Assembly: GCF_006738645.1 (NCBI RefSeq)
Contig: NZ_AP019700.1
Coordinates: 124,001 to 188,000, forward strand
Length of the DNA stretch: 64,000 nt
Direction of reading: 5' to 3'
From: Stella humosa
Lineage (GTDB): Bacteria; Pseudomonadota; Alphaproteobacteria; ATCC43930; Allostellaceae
The notes under the pieces are model-generated. The model had not been told where the DNA came from. It was given only the letters and a program-made list of their open reading frames with translations, and searched no databases. Positions 21,443 through 34,478 of this stretch are shown here, piece after piece; the stretch's first letter is position 1; every line of letters begins with the position of its first letter. The position numbers were made by a program, and so were the translations under genes.

Positions 21443-21769
21443 TCAGACGCAGGCCGAGGCCAGGAACAGCGGCAGCCCGGTCCAGGCCGTCGATGCCAGC
21501 GCGGCGGCGGCCGCCGCCGGTCCGACCGCCGCCATGGCGCCAGCGCGACCCTGCCAGGCGACCGCCAGCAGCAGGGCATTGGCGACCAGATGGGCGACCC
21601 AGACCCCGGTCATCGCCCCCTGGTGCAGCAGGGGCGGCCAGACCTCGGCGCAGCCGATCGCTTGCACCACGTAGAGCAGGGTGAAGGCACTTGCCCAGAC
21701 GGTGAAGGCGGCCAGCGCCAGGACCAGCGGGTGCGGCCCCCTGCCGGCCGGCGGGGTGGCGTCGGTCAT
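21443..21769 (-). CDS. Small membrane protein of the oxidase locus
   Basis: This 108-residue protein has three predicted membrane helices (LVLALAAFTVWASAFTLLYVV, a middle one and ALASTAWTGLPLFLASACV). I do not recognise a named family. Its start overlaps the stop of the subunit I/III gene by four bases, so it is coupled to the oxidase. It may act as a small structural or assembly subunit in the subunit IV position. The evidence is positional and by topology only. Confidence 0.65.
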   Translation of the reverse strand: MTDATPPAGRGPHPLVLALAAFTVWASAFTLLYVVQAIGCAEVWPPLLHQGAMTGVWVAHLVANALLLAVAWQGRAGAMAAVGPAAAAAALASTAWTGLPLFLASACV

Positions 21770-24282
21770 GGTGCGGCCAGCAGCGGCAGGCCGTGCAGCA
21801 TCGCCAGGACGACGAGGCCGGTGGCGCCGGCATAGCCCGCCAGCAGGCCGGTGTTGTGCAAGGCCAGGTCGCGGCTGGGCGAGACGTAGCCGGCCCGGCA
21901 GCGCGCCCAGCTATAGCCCGCCGCCACCAGCGCCAGCGCGGCATGGAAGGCGGCATAGGCGGCCAGCGCCGTGGCGGCGGCGGCATAGGCATGGGTCGCA
22001 GGCGGCGGCAGGCGCAGCCCGATCGTCGCCGCCAGTGCGGCCAGCGCCAGGGCGGCCCCGGCGGCCGATACGGCCAGCCAGGGCTGCGGCCGCCGCGCGC
22101 CGATGGCGATCCGCGCCGCCACCGCGGCCGCACCCAGCCCGCCCGCGGCCAGCCCGGCCAGGATCGGCGCCGGCGCCATGAAGGCGGGCGGTGGCCAGTT
22201 GGGCGCGATCACCCACAGGAAGGCCTGGCCGAAGGCGAGTGAAGCGAAGAAGGAGGCGTCGGCGACGAGGGTGAAGACCAGGGCGCCGCGCAGGGGTGAC
22301 CGGCGGTCGGCCGGTGCTGACGGAACCGACTGGCCAAGGCCGATCGGCACGATCGGCATGTCGTGCCGGCTGCCCATGCTCCACAGCCACAGGATCACCA
22401 GGACCAGCACGGCGGCCGCCCCCGCCAGCGCCAGCAGGTAGAGCTTGAAGAGGGCGGAGACGAAGAAGACGCCCGTCGCCACGGCCGCCCACAGGGGCAG
22501 GAAGGTGGGGCCGGGCAGCAGCAGCACCTGGTCGGGCCGGCCGGTGACGGCGTCCACCCCCAGCGTCTCACGCCAGCCGTTGCGGGTGATCCCCAGATGC
22601 TGCTCGCCGGCCGCCATGGACGCGGCCAGCGCCGGCCCGGCCAACGCCTGTCCTGGCTGCGCGGCTTCGCCCAGCGCCGGCTGGCTGGCGAAGTTGTAGC
22701 TGGGCGGCGGCAGCGGCATCGCCCATTCCAGCGTGCCCGCCCCCCAGGGGTCGGCCGACGCCGGCCGGCCGAAGCGGCGTTGCAGCAGGATGTCGACGAC
22801 GAACAGCGCGAATCCGATCGCCATGACGAAGGATGCCACCGACGACAGCAGGTTGAGCCCGTCCCAGCCCAGTCCCGGCGCATAGGTGTAGACCCGCCGC
22901 GGCATGCCCAGCAGCCCCGTCAGGTGCATCGGCAGGAAGGTGAGGTTGAATCCCACGAACACCAGCCAGAACGAGGCGGTGCCCAGATGATGCACCGGCA
23001 TGCGCCCGGTGAAGTGCGGCAGCCAGTAGTAGGCGCCGGCCATCATCGGGAAGATGAAGCCGCCGATCAGCACGTAATGCAGGTGGGCGACCACGAAATG
23101 GGTGTCGTGCACCTGCCAGTCGAAGGGCACGACCGCCAGCATGACGCCGGTCAGCCCGCCCGCCACGAAGATGAAGAAGAAGCCGCAGATGAACAGCATC
23201 GGCAGCCGGAAGACCGGGCGCCCGCGCAGCAGCGTGCCGATCCAGGCGAAGATCTGCACCGCCGTCGGGATCGCCACCAGCATGCTGGCGGCCGAGAAGA
23301 ATCCGAGCGCCAGATGCGGGATGCCGACCGCGAACATGTGGTGCACCCACAGCCCGAAGCTGAGGAAGGCCATGGCGACGATGCTGACGACGATCCAGTT
23401 GTAGCCGACCAGCCGGTGGCGGGCGAAGACCGGCAGGACGGTGGAGACGACGCCCGCCGCCGGCAGGAAGATGATGTAGACCTCGGGATGGCCGAACAGC
23501 CAGAACAGGTGCTGCCACAGCAGCGGGTCGCCGCCGCGGACGGGGTCGAAGAAAGGCCAGCCGAAGGCCCGCTCCAGCTCCAGCAGGATCGAGCCCAGGA
23601 TCAGCGGCGGGAACCCCACCAGCATCATCCCGGCCGTCACCAGCAGGTACCAGGCGAAGATCGGCATGCGGTGCAGCGCCATGCCGGCCGTCCGCACGCG
23701 CAGGACCGACACCACGATCTCGACGGCAGCCGCGATCGCCGAGACCTCGACGAAGGTGATGCCGATCAGCCAGATGTCGGCATTGATGCCGGGCGAATAG
23801 GGGCGCGAGGAGAGCGGCGTGTACATGAACCAGCCGCTGTCGGGCGCCACCCCCATGACCAGCGCACTCACCACCAGCGTGCCGCCGAAGAGATAGCACC
23901 AGTAGCCGTAGGCACCCAGGCGCGGGAAGGCCAGGTCGCGCGCGCCCAGCATCTTGGGCAGCAGATAGACCGCCAGCCCCTCGAACATCGGGATGGCGAA
24001 GAGGAACATCATCACCGTGCCGTGCATGGTGAAGATCTGGTTGTAGGCGCCGGGATCGAGGAAGGCGTTGCCCGGCGTGGCGAGCTGGGCGCGGATCAGC
24101 ATCGCCAGCAGCCCGCCGATCGCGAAAAAGACGAAGGCGGTGACGATGAACCGCCGGCCGATGATCGTGTGGTTGACGGCGGCCAGCCGGCCCCAGCCGC
24201 GCGGCGTGCCCCACAGCGCCTCCAGCGCGCCATCCAGGCCAGGGGCGGGGGCCAGCGCGTCGTCCCTGGATGGGGCGGTCAT
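21766..24282 (-). CDS. ctaD: Cytochrome c oxidase subunit I-III fusion
   Basis: This 838-residue fusion has a haem-copper oxidase subunit I (about 25-530) followed by a subunit III-like domain (about 590-838). The reducible centre ligands are present: haem a H87 and H402, haem a3 H400, CuB H265, H314 and H315, and the cross-linking Y269 in GHPEVY. E267 of the D pathway is also there. The usual K-pathway lysine (PTGIK in aa3 enzymes) reads PTAVQ (Q343). The asparagines normally seen near D116 (GARDLAFPRLGAYGYW) are replaced. It would reduce oxygen to water at the cytoplasmic membrane. It is coupled to the subunit II gene upstream and the small membrane protein downstream. Confidence 0.93.
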   Translation of the reverse strand: MTAPSRDDALAPAPGLDGALEALWGTPRGWGRLAAVNHTIIGRRFIVTAFVFFAIGGLLAMLIRAQLATPGNAFLDPGAYNQIFTMHGTVMMFLFAIPMFEGLAVYLLPKMLGARDLAFPRLGAYGYWCYLFGGTLVVSALVMGVAPDSGWFMYTPLSSRPYSPGINADIWLIGITFVEVSAIAAAVEIVVSVLRVRTAGMALHRMPIFAWYLLVTAGMMLVGFPPLILGSILLELERAFGWPFFDPVRGGDPLLWQHLFWLFGHPEVYIIFLPAAGVVSTVLPVFARHRLVGYNWIVVSIVAMAFLSFGLWVHHMFAVGIPHLALGFFSAASMLVAIPTAVQIFAWIGTLLRGRPVFRLPMLFICGFFFIFVAGGLTGVMLAVVPFDWQVHDTHFVVAHLHYVLIGGFIFPMMAGAYYWLPHFTGRMPVHHLGTASFWLVFVGFNLTFLPMHLTGLLGMPRRVYTYAPGLGWDGLNLLSSVASFVMAIGFALFVVDILLQRRFGRPASADPWGAGTLEWAMPLPPPSYNFASQPALGEAAQPGQALAGPALAASMAAGEQHLGITRNGWRETLGVDAVTGRPDQVLLLPGPTFLPLWAAVATGVFFVSALFKLYLLALAGAAAVLVLVILWLWSMGSRHDMPIVPIGLGQSVPSAPADRRSPLRGALVFTLVADASFFASLAFGQAFLWVIAPNWPPPAFMAPAPILAGLAAGGLGAAAVAARIAIGARRPQPWLAVSAAGAALALAALAATIGLRLPPPATHAYAAAATALAAYAAFHAALALVAAGYSWARCRAGYVSPSRDLALHNTGLLAGYAGATGLVVLAMLHGLPLLAAP

Positions 24283-25316
24283 CGCAACCCTCCCAGATAG
24301 CGCGCGATGCTGTCGGCCGCGGCCGCCTCCAGCAGGCCGTGATGGGGTTCGTGGCTGCCGGGCTTCAGGACCGGGTGCTGGGCGATCCAGCGGGCGAAGG
24401 CATCCGGCCCGTCATTGGCAAGCGCCCCGCCGCCCAGCCACTGCCGGCCCGCCACGCCGGCCAGGTTGGGGCCGCTGCTTGGCCGGCGGGCGTCGGCGCT
24501 GTGGCACTGGCCGCAGGCGGCGACGAATTCGGCCGCCCCTGGCCGGGCGGGCTCGGGCGGCCGGGCGAGGGCGTCGAGCCGCGCCTGGAAGGCGTCGGGC
24601 GTGTGGGCGATCACCTGGAACCCCATGAAGGTGTGCTGCAGCCCGCAGAACTCCGCGCACTGGCCGCGATAGGTGCCGGGCGCCACCGGACCCAGGCGGA
24701 TGCGGGTGCGATGGCCGGGGATCGCGTCGATCTTGCCGCCCAGGCGCGGGACCCAGAAGCTATGGATGACGTCGTGGGCCATCACCTCGACCTCGATGGC
24801 GCGCCCGGCCGGGATATGCAGCTCGCCCGCGGTATGGAGCGGCCGGCCGGCGAAATCGGGGTAGACGAACTCCCACCACCATTGCCGCGCATGGGCCTCG
24901 ACCCGCAGCGGCGCGTCGCCCCCCGTCCGGGGCAGCAGCGCCTCGCCCGTGCGCAGCGAGAAGACGAGAAGGGCGGTCAGCACGACCAGCGGAAAGGCGA
25001 TGCCGGCGCCGCCCAGCAATGCGGCGGTCGACGGCGACCGGCCGCCACCGGCCAGGGCATAGGCCAGCAACGCCATCACCCCGACCAGGATCAGCGTGGC
25101 CCCGCCCAGCATCCACCACCACAGTTGCGCCGTCGCCGCGGCCGCCGGCCCGGCCGGATCGAGCGCCGACAGCGGCCCGCCGCAGCCACCCAGCAGCGCA
25201 CCTGCCGGAACCAGCAGGAAACCTGCCCGCGCCGCCCGCGTTAACCTCCGGTTGCCCGTCGCCCCGCCCCGCCCCGCCTCGGCCCGACCGGAGACCGCCC
25301 GATGACCGAACCCCAC
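24279..25316 (-). CDS. ctaC: Cytochrome c oxidase subunit II with C-terminal cytochrome c
   Basis: This is a lipoprotein-type subunit II of up to 345 residues. Counted from the GTG, the lipobox is LLGGC (C45) and two transmembrane helices follow. The CuA site is H185, C220, E222, C224, H228 and M231. A cytochrome c domain has CGQCH at 268-272. The expected axial methionine motif near the C-terminus is replaced by KPGSHEPHHGLL. Start choice is difficult: no ATG, GTG or TTG lies in frame between the lipobox and 25316. That GTG overlaps the divergent DUF2231 gene. A good ribosome binding site (CGGAGG) precedes an ACG at 25241, which would give an ideal lipoprotein signal. ATGA overlap with subunit I. 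Confidence 0.88.
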   Translation of the reverse strand: MGFGHRAVSGRAEAGRGGATGNRRLTRAARAGFLLVPAGALLGGCGGPLSALDPAGPAAAATAQLWWWMLGGATLILVGVMALLAYALAGGGRSPSTAALLGGAGIAFPLVVLTALLVFSLRTGEALLPRTGGDAPLRVEAHARQWWWEFVYPDFAGRPLHTAGELHIPAGRAIEVEVMAHDVIHSFWVPRLGGKIDAIPGHRTRIRLGPVAPGTYRGQCAEFCGLQHTFMGFQVIAHTPDAFQARLDALARPPEPARPGAAEFVAACGQCHSADARRPSSGPNLAGVAGRQWLGGGALANDGPDAFARWIAQHPVLKPGSHEPHHGLLEAAAADSIARYLGGLR

Positions 25317-25787
25317 CTGCGCGACCCGCGCTACCACGACATCAGTTCGCGCGTGGCGCTGGCCGGCCATCCCATCCACGCGATGATGGTGACTTTCCCC
25401 ATCGCGCTGGTGATCTCCACCCTGGGCGCCGACGTGTTCTTCTGGTGGACGGCCGATCCGTTCTGGATCCGGGCGGCCCTGTGGTCGAGCGGCTTCGCCT
25501 TCTGCCTGGGGGTGCTGGCCGGGCTGGTCGGCACGGTCGAGATCCTGCTGGCGCCCGGCATCCGCCGCCGCACGGCGAGCTGGACGCATTTCGTGGCGGC
25601 GATGATGCTGCTGTCGGTCGCGGGCGCCAACTGGGGCCTGCGCTTGTCCGACCCGCCCGCCTCGCCGCTGCCCTGGGGCATCCTGCTGTCGGGCCTGGCG
25701 ACGGTCTTCGTCGGGCTGGCGGGCTGGCATGGCGGCAAGCTGGTATTCGAGCATCAGATCGGCCTGCTGCTCGCCAAGGAGGACTGA
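25302..25787 (+). CDS. DUF2231 domain membrane protein
   Basis: This 161-residue protein has four predicted helices and the DUF2231 signature GHPIHAMMVTFPIALVIS. The intervening arginine-rich loop IRRRTASW and a C-terminal GGKLVFEHQIG also match the family. DUF2231 proteins often accompany cytochromes or haem-copper oxidases and may bind haem or a metal, but the role is not established. It is transcribed opposite to the oxidase genes on both sides. Its start region overlaps that of subunit II and its end overlaps the CopD-like gene by 34 bases. Confidence 0.85.
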   Translation: MTEPHLRDPRYHDISSRVALAGHPIHAMMVTFPIALVISTLGADVFFWWTADPFWIRAALWSSGFAFCLGVLAGLVGTVEILLAPGIRRRTASWTHFVAAMMLLSVAGANWGLRLSDPPASPLPWGILLSGLATVFVGLAGWHGGKLVFEHQIGLLLAKED

Positions 25788-26290
25788 CCAGTCCAATCCC
25801 AGTCGGTGCGATCGGGCCGCGGCTGGCGCAGCCAGTCGGGGAACAGCGTCTCGTCGAAGCCGGGCTTGGCCAGCACCAGCCACAGGATGGCGACCATCGC
25901 CGTGCCGGCTGCCGCCAGCAGCAGGGCCGGGAGCAGGCGGCCGATCCGCCCCTCGGCCTGGGCCAGGCGGGCGATGCTGCGGCCATGCTGCATGTGCACC
26001 AGCACCAGGACACCGACCAGCGCCAGCTTCGCGAAGAGCCATGGCGCGAAGGCGCCGCGCTGGAAGATGAGCGCCATGCCGCTGCCGATCGCCAGCACCG
26101 CGGCTGGCGACGCGACGGCCAGGTAGCAGGCGCGCCCGAAGCTGCGCAGTTGCTGGGCGGCAGCTCCCTCCCACTCGCCCGTCTGCACCGCGCGGCCGGT
26201 GCGAACCAGCACGCCCGGCAGCACCAGCAGCCCCGCGCACCAGACCGAGAGGGCGGCGATGTGCAGGATCTTCAGCCAGGTGGCCGTCAC
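25754..26290 (-). CDS. CopD-like membrane protein
   Basis: This 178-residue protein has four membrane segments. It begins TATWLKILHIAALSVWCAGLLVLPG, the histidine-containing first helix typical of CopD/DUF2269-type proteins. It continues with GSGMALIFQRGAFAPW and KLALVGVLVLVHMQHGR, with further conserved histidines. CopD relatives are linked to copper uptake, which suits CuA/CuB assembly in the neighbouring oxidase. The GTG start overlaps the stop of the CtaG-like gene (GTGA), so the two are co-translated. Confidence 0.78.
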   Translation of the reverse strand: MTATWLKILHIAALSVWCAGLLVLPGVLVRTGRAVQTGEWEGAAAQQLRSFGRACYLAVASPAAVLAIGSGMALIFQRGAFAPWLFAKLALVGVLVLVHMQHGRSIARLAQAEGRIGRLLPALLLAAAGTAMVAILWLVLAKPGFDETLFPDWLRQPRPDRTDWDWTGQSSLASSRPI

Positions 26291-27042
26291 CCCTGCGGTT
26301 CCGGGCTCGCCCGGTGGGCTGCCGCAAGCCAGCCGGCCAGCGGCACCAGGGCGGCTGCGAGGTAGGGCAGGGCGGCCGGCACCCACATGACCAGGCCGGC
26401 CAACTGCTGGTCCTCCAGCGGCGTCAGGCCCCAGGGCAGGGTGGTGGCGAAATGGGCGGCGTAGAGCGGCGCCGGTACGAAGGTCAGCAGCGCGCCCAGC
26501 AGCCCCATCTGCATGACCATGGCCAGCAGCGCCGACAGGCGGGCGGCACCTGCCGGTGCCGCCGTCCGCAGGGTCGACCAGAACAGCACCGCGCTGCCCA
26601 GCAAGGTCGCCTGCATCAGCCAGTAGAGCGTGCCGTCGGCAAGGGCTGCCGCATAGGGCCCCGGCATGTGCCACAGCCACAGGGCCGCGGTCTGCGCCAG
26701 CGTCGCCACCAGCAATCCCGCACCCGGACGTCTGGCCGGCCCGGCATCCGGCAGGGCGGCCGCGATCAGGGGCGCGGCGGCCGCGATCAGCAGCAGGTGA
26801 TGCAAGGCGCGGGCCGAGAACAGGGCGGACGACAGCGCGCAGAGCGGCGAGACGAAGGCCAGCACCAGTACCGCCCATGCGGCCGCCGCGCAGGCCTTCC
26901 GACGCACGCCGCCGGGCGGATGGAGCAGGATCAGTAGCCCGGCCGCCGCCAGCAGGCCCAAGAGCACCGGGTCGCCGTTCCAGCGGCCCCAGATCTCGTC
27001 GGGCAGCGGGCCGCTACCGCAATAGGGTATCCCCTCGCCCAT
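26287..27042 (-). CDS. CtaG-family cytochrome c oxidase assembly protein
   Basis: This polytopic protein has 251 residues and about seven helices. The start PYCGSGPLPDEIWGRWNGDP is followed by SARALHHLLLIAAAAPLIAA, LWLWHMPGPYAAAL and LEDQQLAGLVMWVPAALPYL, all hallmarks of the caa3-type CtaG family. These proteins are needed for assembly, probably copper insertion, of caa3/aa3-type oxidases. It is the first gene of a two-gene unit with the CopD-like gene. Confidence 0.88.
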   Translation of the reverse strand: MGEGIPYCGSGPLPDEIWGRWNGDPVLLGLLAAAGLLILLHPPGGVRRKACAAAAWAVLVLAFVSPLCALSSALFSARALHHLLLIAAAAPLIAAALPDAGPARRPGAGLLVATLAQTAALWLWHMPGPYAAALADGTLYWLMQATLLGSAVLFWSTLRTAAPAGAARLSALLAMVMQMGLLGALLTFVPAPLYAAHFATTLPWGLTPLEDQQLAGLVMWVPAALPYLAAALVPLAGWLAAAHRASPEPQG

Positions 27043-27120: not shown

Positions 27121-29634
27121 TCAGACGATCGCCTTGTCCCAGCCGCCATAATGCTCGCCGCTCAACCGGCCCCGCGGCAGCGACAGCAGGATCAGCGCGA
27201 TGCCGGCCGCCACGCCGACCGCCATGGATGCCGGGCCGCCGCCGTCCAGGACGAAGGGGGCGGCCACGAGCCAGGCGCCGACGGCCATGTTGAGGAAGCG
27301 GACAGGGCGCGCCACCTCGGCCAGGGCGGTGACCGCGATCGTGACGACAAGGCAGCCCGCGACATGGTCGCTGTTGGCCAGGTCGCCTTCGGTGCCGGCC
27401 AGCAGCCGGGTCGCCATCAAGGCGAGGCCGATGGCGATGGACAGCGACAGGGTCCAGGGAAAGCTGACCCCGCCCAGCAGGAACGCGCGCAGGAGCTGGC
27501 CCACGGGTGCGTCGATATCCGGGCCCTTCTCCCGCTCCGCGCCGGGCAGGCTGTCACCGCCCTGCCAGAAGGTGCGCCACAGCGGCCGCCCGGCGCGGCG
27601 TGCCCGCAGCAGGAACTGCGCCGAGGCGAGCAGCTCGTCCAGCGCGTAGGGGATCATCGCCACGCTGACGACGGCTGTCGCCAGGCACAGGCCGCACCAG
27701 GTGCCGATCAGCACCGGCTGGATGATGATGAAGCCGATGCTGACGGCCCCCAGGGGCACGATCAGCAGGCCGAATCCCAGCACCAGCCAGGGCATGGTGC
27801 GCCAGCGGCGGCGGTCGCCGATCAGCCCGGTCAGGGCCTCGATCAGGTAGACGACGGCCCCCATGCCGGCATCGGCGATCGGCCAGGCGCGCGACAGGTC
27901 GGAGGTGATGACCCGCTCGGTGCCGTCGCCGAAGGCCGGGTCCCAGGCGTCGTCGATGTGGCCGAGCTGGAAGGCCGCCATGTAGCGTGACAGCAGGAAG
28001 CCGATGAAGGCCAGGACGACGATCGGCACGCGCTGGGAATAGCTGGATGGCGAATAGCTCCAGCCGAGCGGGATGTCGGCATCGCTCTTGAGCGCCACGG
28101 TGGCGATGCCGGGCGGGTTGGCGACCAGCGTGGCGAATGCGATCACAAGCGCGCCTATGATCGTGTCGTTGGCATAGGCGGCGGCATTCGTGGTCCAGAA
28201 GACCAGCGGCGCGAACAGCAGCCAGGTGCCGACCGCAGCCACGGCCCAGCGTGCCCAGCGATGGCGCCAGGACAGGGACATCCCGCCCAGCAGGACCAGC
28301 AGCAGGCCGCAGCCGACGTCGCTCCAGCCCAGCATGCGGTCGCGCCACAAGGCGTCCGGCAGGGCGGCGCCGGCGGCCGGGGGAATCGTCGCCGCATTGC
28401 CGCCCTCGAACAGGCCGAAGCTGAACGGGCTGGCGATCAGCCACAGCCCCAGCATGGCGACGAGGAACCCGGCCCAGCGCGTGCTGGAATGCGTGGTCTC
28501 CAGCTCTGCTGCCACCGCACGGCGCTCGGCCGCGGCCACATGCTCGGGCGGGGCCTCCTCTACCTTGGCGGCGGCCATGGCCTTGGCGTTCAGCTTGTTT
28601 GCCGCGTACCAGCCGGCCGGGTCTGCCTTCAGGTTGGCGATCATCTCGGGAATCGTCGCCTCCAGCCGGTGTCGCGGCCGCCAGCCCAGCAGTTGCCAGG
28701 CCCGGTCGGTGTCGATCTCGTAATGGTCGTCGGCCCGGTCGATCATCCAGGGCTGGACGAAGGGATCGAGGTCGAGCACGTCTTCCTGCAGCCACTGCCC
28801 GGCCTTGGCCATCGCCTTGGGCACGGGGCGGGTCTCCCATTCCTCGTCGTGCAGCAGCCGGCCGAACAGGCGTTGCAGCCGGTCGTAGCTGAGCGTCTCG
28901 GCCTCGCCCAGCAGCAGCGTCGTCTCGACCGGCAGCTCGGCCCGGCGGTCGACGATGCGGGCGATGGCATCGACCAGGTCGTCGAGGTGCAGGTAGGGCT
29001 GCCCATGGTCCAGCTCGCCCGGATAGAGGTGGCTGATCACCTGGCGCTCGTGGATGTTGGCGATCTGCTGGGCCAGGAATGCCGCGCGGCACATCTCGTC
29101 ATAGACGCCGGCCGGGCGGATCACGACGAGCGGGATGGCGCCATGCTCGGCCAGCAGCGCCTGCTCGGTCCGCGCCTTGGATGCGGGGTAGGGGGACAAG
29201 GGCTCGATCGGCCTGTCCTCGTCGATGGGCCGCCCGGGCAGCGTCGGCCCGTGGACCAGCAGGGTGCTGGCCAGCACGAACTGGTCCACCCCCAGCGGTT
29301 GCAGGTGGCGCATCAGGCGCCGGCTGCCCTCCACCGTCACCGCCTCGTATTTCGGGTTCTCGTCGCCCGACAGGTCGTAGTAGGCGGCAAGGTGGATGAC
29401 CGATGCGATCCGGGCGCCGGCCCGGCCGACCTCGGCGATGGCGGCGGCCACGCTTTCTTCCTGCGTCAGGTCGACCTGGACCGGCTCGATGCCATCGGGC
29501 GGGGCGTCCGGCACGGTGAAATCCAGCCCGAAGATGCGGAAACGGCCCGCCAGGCGCCGCGCGACCGCCTGGCCCAGGAACCCGCTGCTGCCGGTCACGA
29601 TCACGATCTCGCGGGATTCCGCCTGCTCCGGCAT
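27121..29634 (-). CDS. Epimerase-SPW-VKOR multidomain fusion protein
   Basis: This 837-residue fusion starts with an extended SDR/NAD-dependent epimerase domain (about 8-330). Its landmarks are TGSSGFLG at 14-21, S123, and Y149/K153 in YPASK. A membrane region has at least three SPW-like repeats (GLWLIASPF near 396, GTWLLFAPL near 469, GAWLVAAPF near 786). Between the repeats lies a vitamin K epoxide reductase-like domain (about 535-680) with DDAWDPAFGDGTERVITSD and the redox CxxC WCGLC at C647 and C650. The two loop cysteines of typical VKORs are missing. It may join sugar or quinone-like substrate chemistry to membrane thiol/quinone redox. The start is chosen from a GGAGGA site seven bases upstream; 29652 is an alternative. 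Function not known. Confidence 0.85.
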   Translation of the reverse strand: MPEQAESREIVIVTGSSGFLGQAVARRLAGRFRIFGLDFTVPDAPPDGIEPVQVDLTQEESVAAAIAEVGRAGARIASVIHLAAYYDLSGDENPKYEAVTVEGSRRLMRHLQPLGVDQFVLASTLLVHGPTLPGRPIDEDRPIEPLSPYPASKARTEQALLAEHGAIPLVVIRPAGVYDEMCRAAFLAQQIANIHERQVISHLYPGELDHGQPYLHLDDLVDAIARIVDRRAELPVETTLLLGEAETLSYDRLQRLFGRLLHDEEWETRPVPKAMAKAGQWLQEDVLDLDPFVQPWMIDRADDHYEIDTDRAWQLLGWRPRHRLEATIPEMIANLKADPAGWYAANKLNAKAMAAAKVEEAPPEHVAAAERRAVAAELETTHSSTRWAGFLVAMLGLWLIASPFSFGLFEGGNAATIPPAAGAALPDALWRDRMLGWSDVGCGLLLVLLGGMSLSWRHRWARWAVAAVGTWLLFAPLVFWTTNAAAYANDTIIGALVIAFATLVANPPGIATVALKSDADIPLGWSYSPSSYSQRVPIVVLAFIGFLLSRYMAAFQLGHIDDAWDPAFGDGTERVITSDLSRAWPIADAGMGAVVYLIEALTGLIGDRRRWRTMPWLVLGFGLLIVPLGAVSIGFIIIQPVLIGTWCGLCLATAVVSVAMIPYALDELLASAQFLLRARRAGRPLWRTFWQGGDSLPGAEREKGPDIDAPVGQLLRAFLLGGVSFPWTLSLSIAIGLALMATRLLAGTEGDLANSDHVAGCLVVTIAVTALAEVARPVRFLNMAVGAWLVAAPFVLDGGGPASMAVGVAAGIALILLSLPRGRLSGEHYGGWDKAIV

Positions 29635-29840
29635 CTCGGGTCCTCCGGCCATGGGTCGCCGCGGCGACCCCGGGATTGCGGTCGCCCTGGTTGGACAGCG
29701 CATGGGGCAGGGCCGGGTTCCATTCTTTGCCGGCGGGCGGCCCGGGATGCGTGGCCGGGCCGCATGGCGCGCGGCATAATCGCGCCGCCGGACAGCGCCC
29801 GACTCGGGAATGGCGCCGCCGGCCGGAGGGAGCGGCCAGC

Positions 29841-31448
29841 ATGGATGCGGATCAGTTCGACTACATCGTCGTCGGGGCCGGCTCGGCCGGGTGCGTGCTG
29901 GCCAACCGGCTGACGGCCGACGGCCGCACCACGGTCCTGCTGCTGGAGGCCGGCGGCAAGGACACCGACCCCTGGATCCATATCCCGGCCGGCTTCTACC
30001 GCAACATCTACAACCCCAAGGTCGCCTGGAAATTCGAGACCGAGCCGGAGCCGAACATGAACGGCCGGCGCATCCCCTGGCCGCGCGGCAAGGTGCTGGG
30101 CGGCTCCAGCTCGATCAACGGCCTCATCTACATCCGCGGCCAGAAGGAGGATTTCGACCTGTGGCGGCAGATGGGCAATGCCGGCTGGTCCTATGACGAC
30201 GTGCTGCCCTACTTCCGCAAGTCCGAGGGGCAGGAGCGCGGCGCCGATGCCTATCACGGCGCCGACGGCCCGCTCGCCGTCTCCGACCTGCGCTCGCCGC
30301 ACACGCTGCACGACGCCTTCATCGCCGCGGCGCAGCAGGCGGGGTATCCCTTCAATGCCGATTTCAACGGCGCTTCGCAGGAGGGCGTCGGCCCCTTGCA
30401 GGTGACGGTGCGCGGCCGCCGCCGGTGCAGTGCGGCCGTCGGCTACCTCCGGCCCGCCATGCGCCGACCCAACCTGAAGGTCGAGATCCGTGCCCTGACG
30501 CGCCGGGTGCTGACCGAGGGCCGGCGCGCGGTCGGCGTCGAGTACGACCAGGGCGGCGCCACCCGCCACGCCCGCGCCCGGCGCGAGGTGCTGCTGTGCG
30601 GCGGCACGATCAACTCGCCGCAGATCCTGCAGCTATCGGGGGTCGGGCCGGGGGCGCTGCTGCAGTCGCTGGGCGTCCCCGTCGTGCACGACCTGCCAGG
30701 GGTGGGCGAGAACCTGCAGGACCATCTGGGCGGCCGCCTCATCTATCGCGTGCGCAACGCCAACACGCTGAACGAGATCTCGCGCAGCTGGTGGCGCAAG
30801 GCGCTGACCGGGATGGAGTATGCGTTGGCCTCGCGCGGCGCGCTGATGACAGGGGCGGCCCCCATCGGCCTCTTCCTGAAGACCCGGCCGGAACTGGTCT
30901 CGCCCGACGTGCAGTACCAGTTCCTGGCCGGCAGCTCGCCCAAGGCGGGTGAACCGATGCACGACTTCCCCGGCTGCACCATCGTCGCCATCCCCTGCCG
31001 GCCGGAAAGCCGCGGCTGGCTGCGCATCCAGTCGCCGGACCCGGCGGCACCGCCGCGGATGACGGCCAACTACCTGTCGACCCAGGGCGACCGCGACACC
31101 ATGGTGGCCGCGCTGCGCGCCGCGCGCCGGGTGTTCGAGGCGCCGGCCATGCGCGCTCAGGTTACCGACGAGTTCATGCCGGGTTCGGCCGCCGTCACCG
31201 ACGAGGCCCTGCTGGAGCATGTGCGCTCGACCTCGGGCACGACCTTCCACCAGACCAGCACCTGCATGATGGGGCCGCAGGCGAACGCCGTCGTCGACAC
31301 CACGCTCAGGGTGAAGGGGATGGAGGGGCTCCGGGTGATCGACGCCTCGATCATGCCGACGGTCGTGTCGGGCAACACCAACGCGACGGCCATCATGATC
31401 GCCGAGAAGGGGGCGGACATGATCCTGCGGGGTGCGGCCGCGGCCTGA
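29841..31448 (+). CDS. GMC-family oxidoreductase, choline dehydrogenase-like
   Basis: This 535-residue FAD-dependent GMC oxidoreductase shows FDYIVVGAGSAGCVLANRL at the N-terminus and GKVLGGSSSINGLIYIRGQ, the GMC signature 1. GGTINSPQILQLSGVGP is signature 2. The catalytic histidine lies in TFHQTSTCMMG, and its partner in SGNTNATAIMIAEKGAD. It oxidises an alcohol to an aldehyde; choline is possible but no betaine aldehyde dehydrogenase is near. It is divergent from the epimerase-SPW-VKOR gene across a 206-base gap that shows no clear operator. The start has GGAGGGAG upstream. Confidence 0.92.
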   Translation: MDADQFDYIVVGAGSAGCVLANRLTADGRTTVLLLEAGGKDTDPWIHIPAGFYRNIYNPKVAWKFETEPEPNMNGRRIPWPRGKVLGGSSSINGLIYIRGQKEDFDLWRQMGNAGWSYDDVLPYFRKSEGQERGADAYHGADGPLAVSDLRSPHTLHDAFIAAAQQAGYPFNADFNGASQEGVGPLQVTVRGRRRCSAAVGYLRPAMRRPNLKVEIRALTRRVLTEGRRAVGVEYDQGGATRHARARREVLLCGGTINSPQILQLSGVGPGALLQSLGVPVVHDLPGVGENLQDHLGGRLIYRVRNANTLNEISRSWWRKALTGMEYALASRGALMTGAAPIGLFLKTRPELVSPDVQYQFLAGSSPKAGEPMHDFPGCTIVAIPCRPESRGWLRIQSPDPAAPPRMTANYLSTQGDRDTMVAALRAARRVFEAPAMRAQVTDEFMPGSAAVTDEALLEHVRSTSGTTFHQTSTCMMGPQANAVVDTTLRVKGMEGLRVIDASIMPTVVSGNTNATAIMIAEKGADMILRGAAAA

Positions 31449-31455
31449 AGACAGG

Positions 31456-31491
31456 CGCTACCGCACGAAGGCGGGCCGCTACAGCACGAAG
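31456..31491. repeat. 15-base tandem duplication at the end of the RTX protease gene
   Basis: CGCTACCGCACGAAG and CGCTACAGCACGAAG are repeats with one mismatch and a 21-base period. Read on the minus strand they encode the last residues plus stop of the protease (FVL-stop) and, seven codons later in the same frame, a near copy (FVR-stop). Confidence 0.7.
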
Positions 31492-34478
31492 TCCAGCGCG
31501 TCGAGCTTGGTCGCGCCGTTGACCTGGATCTCCAGGTCGGCGGTGCGGTCGCGGTTGGTGTCGGCCTGGATGCTGAGGACGCCGCCGCTGACGCTGTAGC
31601 GCAGCTGGCCGGCACCGCCGGTGAAGGCGCCGGTGCCGATGAAGGTGAAGGCCTGGTTGCCGGAATTGCGGCTGTCGGCGTCGATCGCCGACAGGTCGAT
31701 GCGGTCGAGGTCGTCGAAGGCGGTGATGATGTCGCGGTTGGAGCCGCGCGGGCTCTCCGCCGTCGACTGGTAGACGAAGCGGTCGGCGCCTTCGCCGCCC
31801 GTCAGCAGGTCGCGGCCGCCGCCGCCATAGAGCGTGTCGTCGCCACCACCGCCCACCAGCGTGTTGGCGCCGCTGTTGCCGTTGATGACGTTGGCCAGGT
31901 CGTTGCCCGTGCCGGCGATGCCGGACGACCCCGTCAAGGTCAGGTTCTCGACGAAGCCGGGCAGGGTGTAGGTGACCGAGGTCTGGATCAGGTCCGTGCC
32001 GCCGCCGTCCAGCTCGATGACGACGTCGCCGGCATGGTCCACGGTGTAGCTGTCGTTGCCGCCGGCACCGGTCATGGTATCGGCGCCGCCCGCCCCGTTG
32101 AGCGCGTTGGCGGCGGCGTTGCCGGTGATGCGGTTGGCGGCCGAGTTGCCGGTGCCGGCAATCGCCTGGTCGCCCGTCAGGGTCAGGTCCTCGAAGTTGT
32201 TGGCGAGCGTCCAGGTGACCGACGACAGCACCCGGTCCACGCCGGCGCCGCCGCTCTCGCTCAGCGAATCCCGCGTCGAATCGACGATGTAGACGTCGTC
32301 GCCCTGGCCACCCGCCAGCGTGTCGTTGCCGGCCCCGCCATCCAGCGTGTCGGCCCCGCCATTGCCGTTCAGCCGGTCGTTGCCGCCCAGCCCGTCCAGC
32401 CTTTCGTCCGCGGCCGTGCCGGTCAGCGTGTCGGCGTTGGCGGTCCCGGTCAGCGAACCGCCGCCGCCCCCTCCGCCGCCACCGCCCATCAGGTTGTCGG
32501 TCGACAGGTTCTGGTCGGCGAAGGACAGCATCTCGACACCGTACACCTGGTCGCTGCCCTCGGGCGCGCCGGTGCGCTTGTCGACGATGAGGAAGCTGGC
32601 GCTGCCTGCCTGCCAGGTGACGTCGTACTGGCTGCGGTTGCCGTCATAGACGGCGCGGTCGCTGCCCTGGCCGCCCAGCAGCGTGTCGTTGCCGGCCCCG
32701 CCCGCCAGCGTGTCGTTGCCGACGCCGCCATCCAGCGAATCGGCGCCGCGATAGCCCTCGATCCAGTTGGCCGCGTCGTTGCCCGTCACCCGATCGTTGC
32801 CGTCGCCCAGGATCGCGGTCTCGATCACGGTGCCGGCGGCGATCGTCAGGCTGCGCCCGGCGACCGTGCTGGCCGACCCCGGCCGCAGGTCGAGCGTGGT
32901 GGCGGCGGCGATGGCCGACAGGTTCATCGTGTCGTTGCCGCCGTCGTCCCGCAACGTCGCCCGGGCGGTCTCGCCGCCGATGGCGCCGAAGGCATCGGTG
33001 TAGACGTAGCTGTCGTCGGCGGTGTCGGGATCGCCGATCATCGTCATCGACCAGGAATTGAGCGTGCCGGCGATGCCGGTGGCGTGGTCGGTGACGATCA
33101 GCGTCCAGGTGCCGTTGGCGGATTCGCCCCAGAACTGCACGCTGTCGACGGTGAAGCGGATGTCGTCCTGGCTGGTGCCCAGCGCATTGGTGGAGCTGAC
33201 GCCCGGCCGGTAGACCAGCTCCGACACGGTGCCGGACGGCGAGGTGAGCGTGACCGACAGGTCGCCGATCCAGGCATGCTGGATGTCGAGGGTCACTTCC
33301 ACCCGGTCGATCTCGACCGCCTGGCCGGAGATCGCGATGCTGTCGGTCACCCGGCCGCCGTCGGGGATGGCCAGGTTCGGGCTCGGATCGGAAGTGCGGG
33401 TGACCAGCACGCGGTCGGCCTGGGTCGACTGCTCGCCCCAGCTTTCGGCCAGGCGCACGGCGGCATGGGCGTCGACCAGGCCGAAGCCGTGATCGTCGTT
33501 GAAGCGCAGGCCGCCGCCGTTCCAGTCGCGGGCGCCGTTCACGTCCCAGGTGATGCCGCTGGCGGTCGGCTGCTGGGCGGAATAGGCCAGGATCTCCTGC
33601 ACGTCGCGATAGCCCAGGCGCGGGTTCGCCTCCAGCATGAGGGCGACCACGCCCGAGACGATGGGGGCCGCGAACGAGGTGCCGCCGACGCTGGCATAGT
33701 CGCCGCTGCCATAGCCGACGCTGCCCAGCCGGTCGGTGGTGGTGATGCTGACGCCCGGTGCCGACACCAGGACGGCTGCCCCTGGCGTGCTGAAGGATGC
33801 GATCCGCCCGCTCGAATCGGTGGCGCCGACGGCGATCACGTAGGGGCTGTTCTGGAAGTCGTGGTAGTTCACGTTGTCGCCCGCGCCGCGGCTGTTGCCG
33901 GCGGCGAAGACGACGACCGTGCCGAGGTTGCCGCGTCCGCTGGTGGCGGCCGCCTGCAGGGCCGTGCCGATCGCCTGGAACTGGCTGGCGGCGAAGTTGT
34001 CGCCGAAATAGCCGCCATAGCCCCAGCTATTGTTGGCGATGTCGGCGCTGGCCATGCGCTGGAAGGCGCTCAGGATCTGGGCGGTGGTGCCGTTGGCGCC
34101 ATAGCCGATGCGCAGGCCGACGAGATCGGCCTCCCAGGCGATGCCGACGCCGCCCAGGTTGTTCTTCTCTGCGGCGATGACGCCGGCGACCGCGGTGCCG
34201 TGGAAATCGCTCGACCCGGCCTGGGCGTCGGCATCGTTGTCGCGGGTGTCGAAGTCGAGGTCGGTGCGGTAGTTGGCGTCGAGGTCCCCATGGGTGCGCT
34301 CGAAGCCGTCATCGATCACCGCGATCTTGATGTCGCGCCCGGCATAGTCGTCCCAGGCGCGCTTCACGTCGATGGCATCGAGATGCCATTGGTTGGTGGC
34401 CAGCGGATCGGTCGGCACCAGGGCCGGCAGCGGCCCGTCCTCGTTCGCACGCGCGCCCATATCGGCCATGACCATCAC
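31479..34478 (-). CDS. Secreted subtilisin-like serine protease with P domain and RTX repeats
   Basis: This 999-residue extracellular protease has an S8 subtilase domain (about 28-345) with the catalytic triad D56 (AVIDDGFE), H93 (DFHGTAVAG) and S268 (GGTSFAAP), plus N195 of the oxyanion hole. A proprotein convertase P domain covers about 365-480. Calcium-binding RTX nonapeptides (GGxGxDxLx type) fill 555-610 and 676-900, and a serralysin-like C-terminal domain ends the protein. There is no signal peptide, and the terminal DFVL (acidic plus hydrophobic residues) fits a type I secretion signal. A run of ten glycines lies at 665-674. No type I secretion genes are adjacent. The upstream ATG or a later in-frame one may be used. 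Confidence 0.9.
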   Translation of the reverse strand: MMVMADMGARANEDGPLPALVPTDPLATNQWHLDAIDVKRAWDDYAGRDIKIAVIDDGFERTHGDLDANYRTDLDFDTRDNDADAQAGSSDFHGTAVAGVIAAEKNNLGGVGIAWEADLVGLRIGYGANGTTAQILSAFQRMASADIANNSWGYGGYFGDNFAASQFQAIGTALQAAATSGRGNLGTVVVFAAGNSRGAGDNVNYHDFQNSPYVIAVGATDSSGRIASFSTPGAAVLVSAPGVSITTTDRLGSVGYGSGDYASVGGTSFAAPIVSGVVALMLEANPRLGYRDVQEILAYSAQQPTASGITWDVNGARDWNGGGLRFNDDHGFGLVDAHAAVRLAESWGEQSTQADRVLVTRTSDPSPNLAIPDGGRVTDSIAISGQAVEIDRVEVTLDIQHAWIGDLSVTLTSPSGTVSELVYRPGVSSTNALGTSQDDIRFTVDSVQFWGESANGTWTLIVTDHATGIAGTLNSWSMTMIGDPDTADDSYVYTDAFGAIGGETARATLRDDGGNDTMNLSAIAAATTLDLRPGSASTVAGRSLTIAAGTVIETAILGDGNDRVTGNDAANWIEGYRGADSLDGGVGNDTLAGGAGNDTLLGGQGSDRAVYDGNRSQYDVTWQAGSASFLIVDKRTGAPEGSDQVYGVEMLSFADQNLSTDNLMGGGGGGGGGGSLTGTANADTLTGTAADERLDGLGGNDRLNGNGGADTLDGGAGNDTLAGGQGDDVYIVDSTRDSLSESGGAGVDRVLSSVTWTLANNFEDLTLTGDQAIAGTGNSAANRITGNAAANALNGAGGADTMTGAGGNDSYTVDHAGDVVIELDGGGTDLIQTSVTYTLPGFVENLTLTGSSGIAGTGNDLANVINGNSGANTLVGGGGDDTLYGGGGRDLLTGGEGADRFVYQSTAESPRGSNRDIITAFDDLDRIDLSAIDADSRNSGNQAFTFIGTGAFTGGAGQLRYSVSGGVLSIQADTNRDRTADLEIQVNGATKLDALDFVL

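Follow-up and report, generated by a model that had tools for sequence, protein, structure and literature searches.

What would a protein do that carries a soluble dinucleotide-dependent enzyme and a membrane redox bundle on a single chain, and are the two chemistries coupled? The question is raised by a gene at positions 27121-29634 (minus strand) of the window, by which we mean the whole 64,000-nucleotide stretch of Stella humosa DNA analysed here. The gene encodes 837 amino acids in the order SDR, SPW, VKOR, SPW. Its frame of 837 codons plus stop begins with an ATG at 29634, with GGAGG 7 bases 5' of this start, and a longer open frame is possible from 29703. Three Pfam families match the protein above their cut-offs: Epimerase (PF01370, residues 11-235, positions 28930-29604; 86.4 bits, E 2.6e-24), VKOR (PF07884, residues 537-664, positions 27643-28026; 78.4 bits against a cut-off of 27.5, E 7.1e-22) and SPW (PF03779, 75 bits against a cut-off of 31.5; three stretches at E ≤ 1, the best at residues 728-819). 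It is the sole PF07884 match in its genome, and in public annotation such fusions go by 'epimerase family protein' in some records and 'VKOR family protein' in others. Neither Rfam nor tRNA scans gave a match in the 64-kb window. A sequence-only reading of this DNA had described one polypeptide with an epimerase fold, SPW repeats and a VKOR-like CxxC; our analysis bore this out, with the ORF, strand, coordinates and residue numbers all correct.

Scanned for the sequence pattern, 84,980 species genomes yielded at least 537 relatives, of which the best 80 were kept, so the relative set leans towards the query. The set that includes these 80 comprises 96 relatives once both of the window's own copies and two duplicates are taken out; 83 of them are fused alike and 13 consist of the C half alone. 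Such frequent joining indicates that the coupling is under selection rather than accidental. An artefact of assembly or gene calling could be read from Jiella (L006/L044) and L051, where apparently frameshifted genes stand against fused sisters, but fusion in one frame in 83 relatives from several Pseudomonadota orders refutes this explanation, and we give it practically no weight. The survey across genomes thus did not find the domains split or unrelated in all relatives, as the sequence-only reading had allowed for. Among the 13 unfused relatives the linkage is partial: ten have no such SDR adjacent, two (L006 and L051) are apparently frameshifted fusions, and one is split, Pontibacter actiniarum (L007) carrying the same two halves as neighbouring genes with an SDR that is 49% identical.

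The closest named relative among the best 80 of at least 537 is Stella sp. ATCC 35155 (75% over the C half), the family of the window organism being Allostellaceae in the tree tool. The fusion gene was present in at least 5 of 385 genomes in a random sample of the class and in at least 6 of 398 in a random sample of the phylum, Pseudomonadota, the window's genome included in both; these counts are lower bounds, since two or three candidates were scored per genome, and they indicate that the gene is patchy. A separate sample of 299 genomes gave a PF07884 match in four, two of which belong to this SDR–SPW–VKOR family. Taken together with its VKOR-SPW members, the family occurs in Proteobacteria, Bacteroidota and haloarchaea. 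A tblastn search returned 157 plasmid records, 117 of them with at least 80% query coverage, including 73 from Sinorhizobium; in Sinorhizobium meliloti the fusion gene lies on pSymB.

We then considered how the parts are arranged. The full-length AlphaFold2 model, built on an alignment of 73 fused proteins, had a mean pLDDT of 89.2 and a pTM of just 0.64, which leaves the placement of the SDR unsure, while the C half modelled alone reached a pLDDT of 91.8 and a pTM of 0.88. The epimerase-like SDR domain is predicted to extend to about residue 350, beyond its Pfam match, and carries GxxGxxG, T124, Y149 and K153; its best solved-structure match in Foldseek is 4lw8_A (E 5.3e-15). The membrane part has twelve predicted helices. 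Four of them form an N-side SPW unit (residues 386-504, positions 28123-28479; helices 386-405, 428-452, 461-478 and 484-504), four the VKOR-type bundle (532-556, 588-604, 615-643 and 648-680) and four a C-side SPW unit (residues 728-819, positions 27178-27453; helices 727-746, 750-769, 773-795 and 801-818). The earlier count of at least three SPW repeats was therefore a fair one, the VKOR bundle being flanked in the models by four SPW helices on each side. VKOR entries took ranks 1-3 in Foldseek for this bundle with probabilities of 0.93-0.96 and weak E values of 0.42-0.58; no match reached E ≤ 0.001, and the family sequence profile found no solved chain at E ≤ 1.

The average content of basic residues is high ahead of helix 1, in loops 453-460, 605-614, 671-690 and 771-780, and after residue 821, and low in the intervening loops of the membrane part. 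Because basic loops face the cytosol under the positive-inside rule, this pattern places the SDR, like the two ends of the chain, inside, and loop 557-587 and the CxxC outside, as is likewise the case for the loop and CxxC of canonical VKOR. The model and the charge pattern thus predict an SDR in the cytosol and a CxxC at the periplasmic face, and with the two on opposite sides of the membrane a direct hand-over between them is unlikely. The suggestion that a soluble dinucleotide step is tied to membrane redox therefore survives in part: the domains are physically joined in 83 of 96 relatives, but they are predicted to work on opposite membrane sides, and the residues of neither site are universal.

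The latter point follows from the alignment. The CxxC, C647-G-L-C650 in the window protein (positions 27685-27696), is present in 96 of 103 aligned members and in 73/73 rows of the alignment of 73, and S..A replaces it in seven (L008, L013, L015, L131, L134, L135 and L136); this 7/103 is not a frequency, as three occurred among the first 97 rows and the other four came from six loci chosen for their likeness to a CxxC-less one. The CxxC-less members occupy at least two places in the tree as drawn, though by its starred branches they may share a single origin. Loop 557-589 contains no cysteine in the window protein, as the sequence-only reading had seen, nor in any of the 103 members. Invariant in 103/103 are P585, D588, G592, Y596, P627, Q639-P640 and D666-E667, as well as R610, W611, R612, M614, P615 and W616 of RWRTMPW (residues 610-616, positions 27787-27807), a signature of the subfamily located where a VKOR helix ends on the cytosolic side. 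These residues lie at both ends of the bundle, partly at its cytosolic end and distant from the CxxC. On the SDR side, Y149 and K153 are present together in 89 of the 90 rows with an SDR residue at position 149, and T or S occupies position 124 in 90/90. The one exception is a Cupriavidus fusion (L009:6998-9583), whose SDR has neither Tyr149 nor Lys153; a separate classical SDR gene adjoins it.

These patterns bear on several explanations. We considered whether the CxxC is what every member of the family depends on and ruled this out, given its absence in seven members; for the same reason thiol chemistry cannot be the universal function. With Tyr/Lys lost in one of 90 as well, neither chemistry is universal; their joint conservation argues that both usually work, and the loss of each in single lineages that neither alone is the point. 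VKOR-type enzymes are commonly viewed as thiol oxidases that need loop cysteines. A plain VKOR/DsbB-type disulfide oxidase whose extra domains are mere decoration, as its PF07884 score above cut-off and its CxxC might suggest, is improbable: in two canonical proteobacterial VKORs (L142 and L143), which can be aligned to the family profile, the CxxC and the two loop cysteines are all present, whereas the loop cysteines are absent in 103/103 members, seven have lost the CxxC, and the RWRTMPW signature is foreign to the canonical proteins. We also regard as unlikely a sensory or structural role for the SDR, in which it would bind NAD(P)H and gate the membrane part, by analogy with complex I, in which an extended SDR (NDUFA9) is a subunit. 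The persistence of the Cupriavidus domain without its Tyr and Lys, and the position of the SDR across the membrane from the CxxC, would fit such a role, but conservation of Tyr/Lys in 89/90 and of T/S124 in 90/90 points to catalysis.

If the SDR is catalytic, it may instead modify a polyprenyl-, hopanoid- or sugar-linked lipid at the cytosolic face, with the SPW and VKOR helices gripping the lipid tail and the CxxC being secondary. The closest families to the domain are sugar-nucleotide epimerases and HpnA, the hopanoid-associated epimerase, its best-scoring NCBIfam equivalog (47.3 bits against 367.65, not a member); none of the 25 equivalogs listed, among them GalE, HpnA and RmlB, reached its cut-off. 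The CxxC-less members retain the SDR Tyr/Lys, GH15 genes occur at 14 of 96 loci, an MGH1-like glycosidase adjoins the Pontibacter gene, and the invariant RWRTMPW and D666-E667 lie near the cytosolic end. Set against this, all invariant residues of the VKOR part are retained by the ten unfused relatives that lack this SDR, neither glycosyltransferase nor isoprenoid genes are widely recurrent in the neighbourhoods, and the copper context described below also speaks against it. An isoprenoid- or sugar-lipid enzyme is thus a doubtful reading, if one that several observations favour.

In the window, the divergent-strand neighbour of the fusion is a GMC oxidoreductase gene (29841-31448, plus strand), which had been taken for a divergent member of its family and a possible partner. 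It is an ordinary one, scoring 633 bits against a cut-off of 605 for the choline dehydrogenase subfamily NF002550, and it fails the stricter NCBIfam betA equivalog (535 against 732 bits). A GMC gene adjoins the fusion in 3 of 96 loci, all in Stella, two of them probably from one strain; we therefore rejected it as a partner outside Stella, and it falls outside the module beyond the genus. At 31479-34478 (minus strand) lies a gene for a 999-residue subtilase with a proprotein-convertase P domain and RTX calcium-binding repeats, which we take to be a likely type I-secreted protease.

On the other side, the fusion in Stella heads a CtaG/caa3-oxidase row on one strand. A CtaG-family cytochrome oxidase assembly gene (26287-27042, minus strand; PF09678, 100 bits) lies 78 bases 3' of the fusion, an order also found in L018, L099 and L100, with Stella gaps of 65-77 bases against the 78 in the window. 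It is followed in the window by a UPF0093 membrane protein gene (25757-26284, minus strand; PF03653, 52.7 bits), then by COX2 with a cytochrome c tail of the caa3 type (24282-25190, minus strand; COX2 68 bits, CoxB 152.8 bits, Cytochrom_C weak at 20.9 bits against a cut-off of 21.3) and by COX1 (21766-24282, minus strand; 838 residues, PF00115 489.5 bits over residues 41-486). COX1 continues for about 350 residues past its Pfam match with no other Pfam family at E ≤ 1e-4, an extension that may be a fused subunit III. A DUF2231 membrane protein gene (25302-25787, plus strand) lies on the opposite strand between COX2 and UPF0093. In the genus, the fusion and this CtaG occur together in three of four genomes and are both absent from the fourth. 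CtaG or COX genes are near 9 of 96 loci, four in the window's clade (clade I), one in clade II and four elsewhere.

To describe the neighbourhoods across the family, we clustered the neighbouring genes, taken from longest-ORF calls around the loci, named the representatives by Pfam and plasmid annotation, and counted markers within about 10 kb. Heavy-metal P-type ATPases, SCO, multicopper oxidase, CusA-type RND, DUF411 and DUF305 recur, as do a four-helix copper-binding protein (DUF326), MerR, CcdA, TlpA, GH15 and classical SDRs; DUF411 and DUF305, which Pfam lists as unknown, we assume to be members of the copper set from the contexts seen. At least one of seven copper/metal markers was found at 43 of the 96 loci and at least two at 29, counts that are not independent events since many copper loci are Rhodobacterales near-copies. 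The markers were unevenly spread, at 1/29 loci in the window's clade, 3/18 in clade II and 39/49 among the others (42/67 outside the window's clade altogether), and at least two of the seven were present at 29/49 loci outside clades I and II. CtaG and COX are the sole copper/metal-related neighbours at the window locus. A copper role for the window's own clade is thus unsupported by its neighbours, at 1/29, and we keep copper as an inference at the level of the family. Copper neighbours were not seen for six of the seven CxxC-less members. Genes for thiol chemistry and copper delivery are also represented (SCO near 15 of the 96 loci, TlpA near 12, CcdA near 16).

The genome background was computed for DUF411 and GH15 in 49 genomes. 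DUF411 had 89 copies in 260 Mb, so that 0.365 would be expected in 50 loci and nine were seen (Poisson 2e-10), and GH15, with 52 match rows, had 0.214 expected and three seen (Poisson 0.001), values that overstate independence because related Rhodobacterales islands account for seven of the nine DUF411 loci. All nine have coordinates matching Pfam hits in their genomes, under a deduced identity of the contigs. On plasmids of Halalkalicoccus and Natrinema, the four-helix copper protein, GH15, VKOR/SPW and SDR genes form a cassette running in one direction, variants of which occur in Stutzerimonas (on a plasmid) and Cupriavidus. Two further associations were noted: proteins combining Rieske and pyridine-nucleotide-disulphide oxidoreductase domains (L132:1941-3506, minus strand; L013:3451-4986, plus strand), encoded near two members of the clade that holds most CxxC-less forms, and sodium/calcium-exchanger-type genes directly 3' of the fusion at three loci from two clades (L134:6430-7464, L023:11382-12479 and L028:5879-6919), an assignment from a Pfam run on L134.

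In the window's clade a different signal appeared upstream of the gene. The EcfG motif, a promoter motif of the general stress response, is given as GGAAC-N16-CGTT for R. etli in the accessible part of one paper (PMC3892343) and as GGAAC-N17-20-GTT for Sphingomonas in that of another (PMC6599016). We found GGAAC-N16-18-CGTT within 250 bases upstream of 9/29 clade I genes compared with 7/414 neighbours (Fisher p 5e-8), while three altered motifs used as controls each gave 0/29. Seven of the nine hits are in Sinorhizobium/Ensifer, the others in Mesorhizobium alhagi and Desertibaculum. The looser GGAAC-N16-19-GTT was found at 13/29 clade I genes and 30/414 neighbours. Outside the window's clade the strict motif gave 2/66 against 9/1083 neighbours (p 0.13) and the looser one 5/66 against 22/1083 (p 0.016); this clade-wise count supersedes a first, looser one of 10/98 core genes against 28/1503 neighbours. 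The motif is absent upstream of the Stella genes, the window gene included. The closest sequence upstream of the latter, GGAAC-N16-CGCT at 29695-29721 (minus strand), differs from the motif in one base and may be a chance resemblance.

At the level of the family, the fusion looks tied to copper and general stress. The copper-delivery and thiol neighbours, the oxidase row of Stella and the rhizobial stress promoters together make an envelope redox protein used under stress the likeliest explanation. We tentatively favour, at something short of an even chance, an envelope redox protein of many bacteria that is induced by stress, linked to quinone and equipped with an NAD(P) module in the cytosol. 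Within the twelve-helix membrane part, the VKOR-type bundle would hold a quinone, and the periplasmic C647xxC650, in most members, would directly exchange electrons between this quinone and a thiol or copper-thiol partner in the periplasm, bypassing the loop-cysteine shuttle. The SDR would be a working NAD(P) enzyme at the cytosolic face that shares a site or ligand with the bundle and does not feed the CxxC directly, and the protein would be switched on or carried by many bacteria for stress, copper stress foremost. Quinone binding, the redox partner, the direction of electron flow and the SDR substrate are what we infer in this proposal. It is tempting to speculate further that the family represents a class of trans-envelope redox enzymes, in which cytosolic NAD(P)H is coupled through a loop-less, quinone-holding VKOR bundle to the reduction or oxidation of copper-thiol sites in the periplasm, and which spread as a mobile module for copper defence and oxidase copper supply before being drawn into the general stress response; we think it rather unlikely that this wider picture holds as a whole.

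The sequence-only reading knew of no described function for the arrangement, and our searches agree with it: in the literature searched, which covered few subscription journals, no paper was found on the SDR–SPW–VKOR architecture, on an 'SPW repeat', on a four-helix copper protein with VKOR, or on VKOR together with an NAD-dependent epimerase and heavy metals, and an epimerase-VKOR fusion returned nothing but unrelated proteomics. The accessible part of one paper lists a VKOR gene alongside metal genes in a plasmid region of Sulfobacillus (PMC6803676). For S. meliloti, tags SMb20014-SMb20019 came up just in an intergenic-region list, in the part of that source available; judged by coordinates, the pSymB fusion gene probably has a lower tag, and the small literature subset checked for SMb20009-SMb20014 held no mention of them. 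New here are the copper/metal-island flanks outside the window's clade, the EcfG motif within it and the CtaG/caa3-oxidase row in Stella. They describe a large VKOR-type family in which the loop cysteines are gone and the CxxC is mostly retained, to which an NAD(P) enzyme and two SPW units have been added, and which accompanies copper and stress genes, and they make the role of a loop-less VKOR a testable question in Sinorhizobium meliloti.

Compared with known systems, the family resembles canonical VKOR (PF07884) in its predicted four-helix bundle, the place of its CxxC and a serine-rich loop end, but differs in having neither loop cysteines (103/103) nor a thioredoxin domain, in the loss of the CxxC in seven members, and in the presence of RWRTMPW, flanking SPW units and usually a fused SDR; the accessible part of a VKOR phylogeny paper (PMC4555120) has no word of fusion, epimerase or SPW. 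With the extended SDRs and NAD-dependent epimerases (PF01370) it shares the Rossmann core, the glycine motif and the T-Y-K triad, whereas its SDR is joined to twelve predicted membrane helices. A further comparison is with the VKOR-SPW proteins that stand alone in copper islands and carry the annotation 'vitamin K epoxide reductase family protein'. These align with the C half over its full length and have the same invariants but no fused SDR, and several of their genes adjoin GH15 and a different classical SDR that is 18-21% identical over the alignment. Finally, the SPW repeat domain (PF03779), a domain without a described function, matches both before and after the VKOR bundle, and the fusion family gives it a first biological setting.
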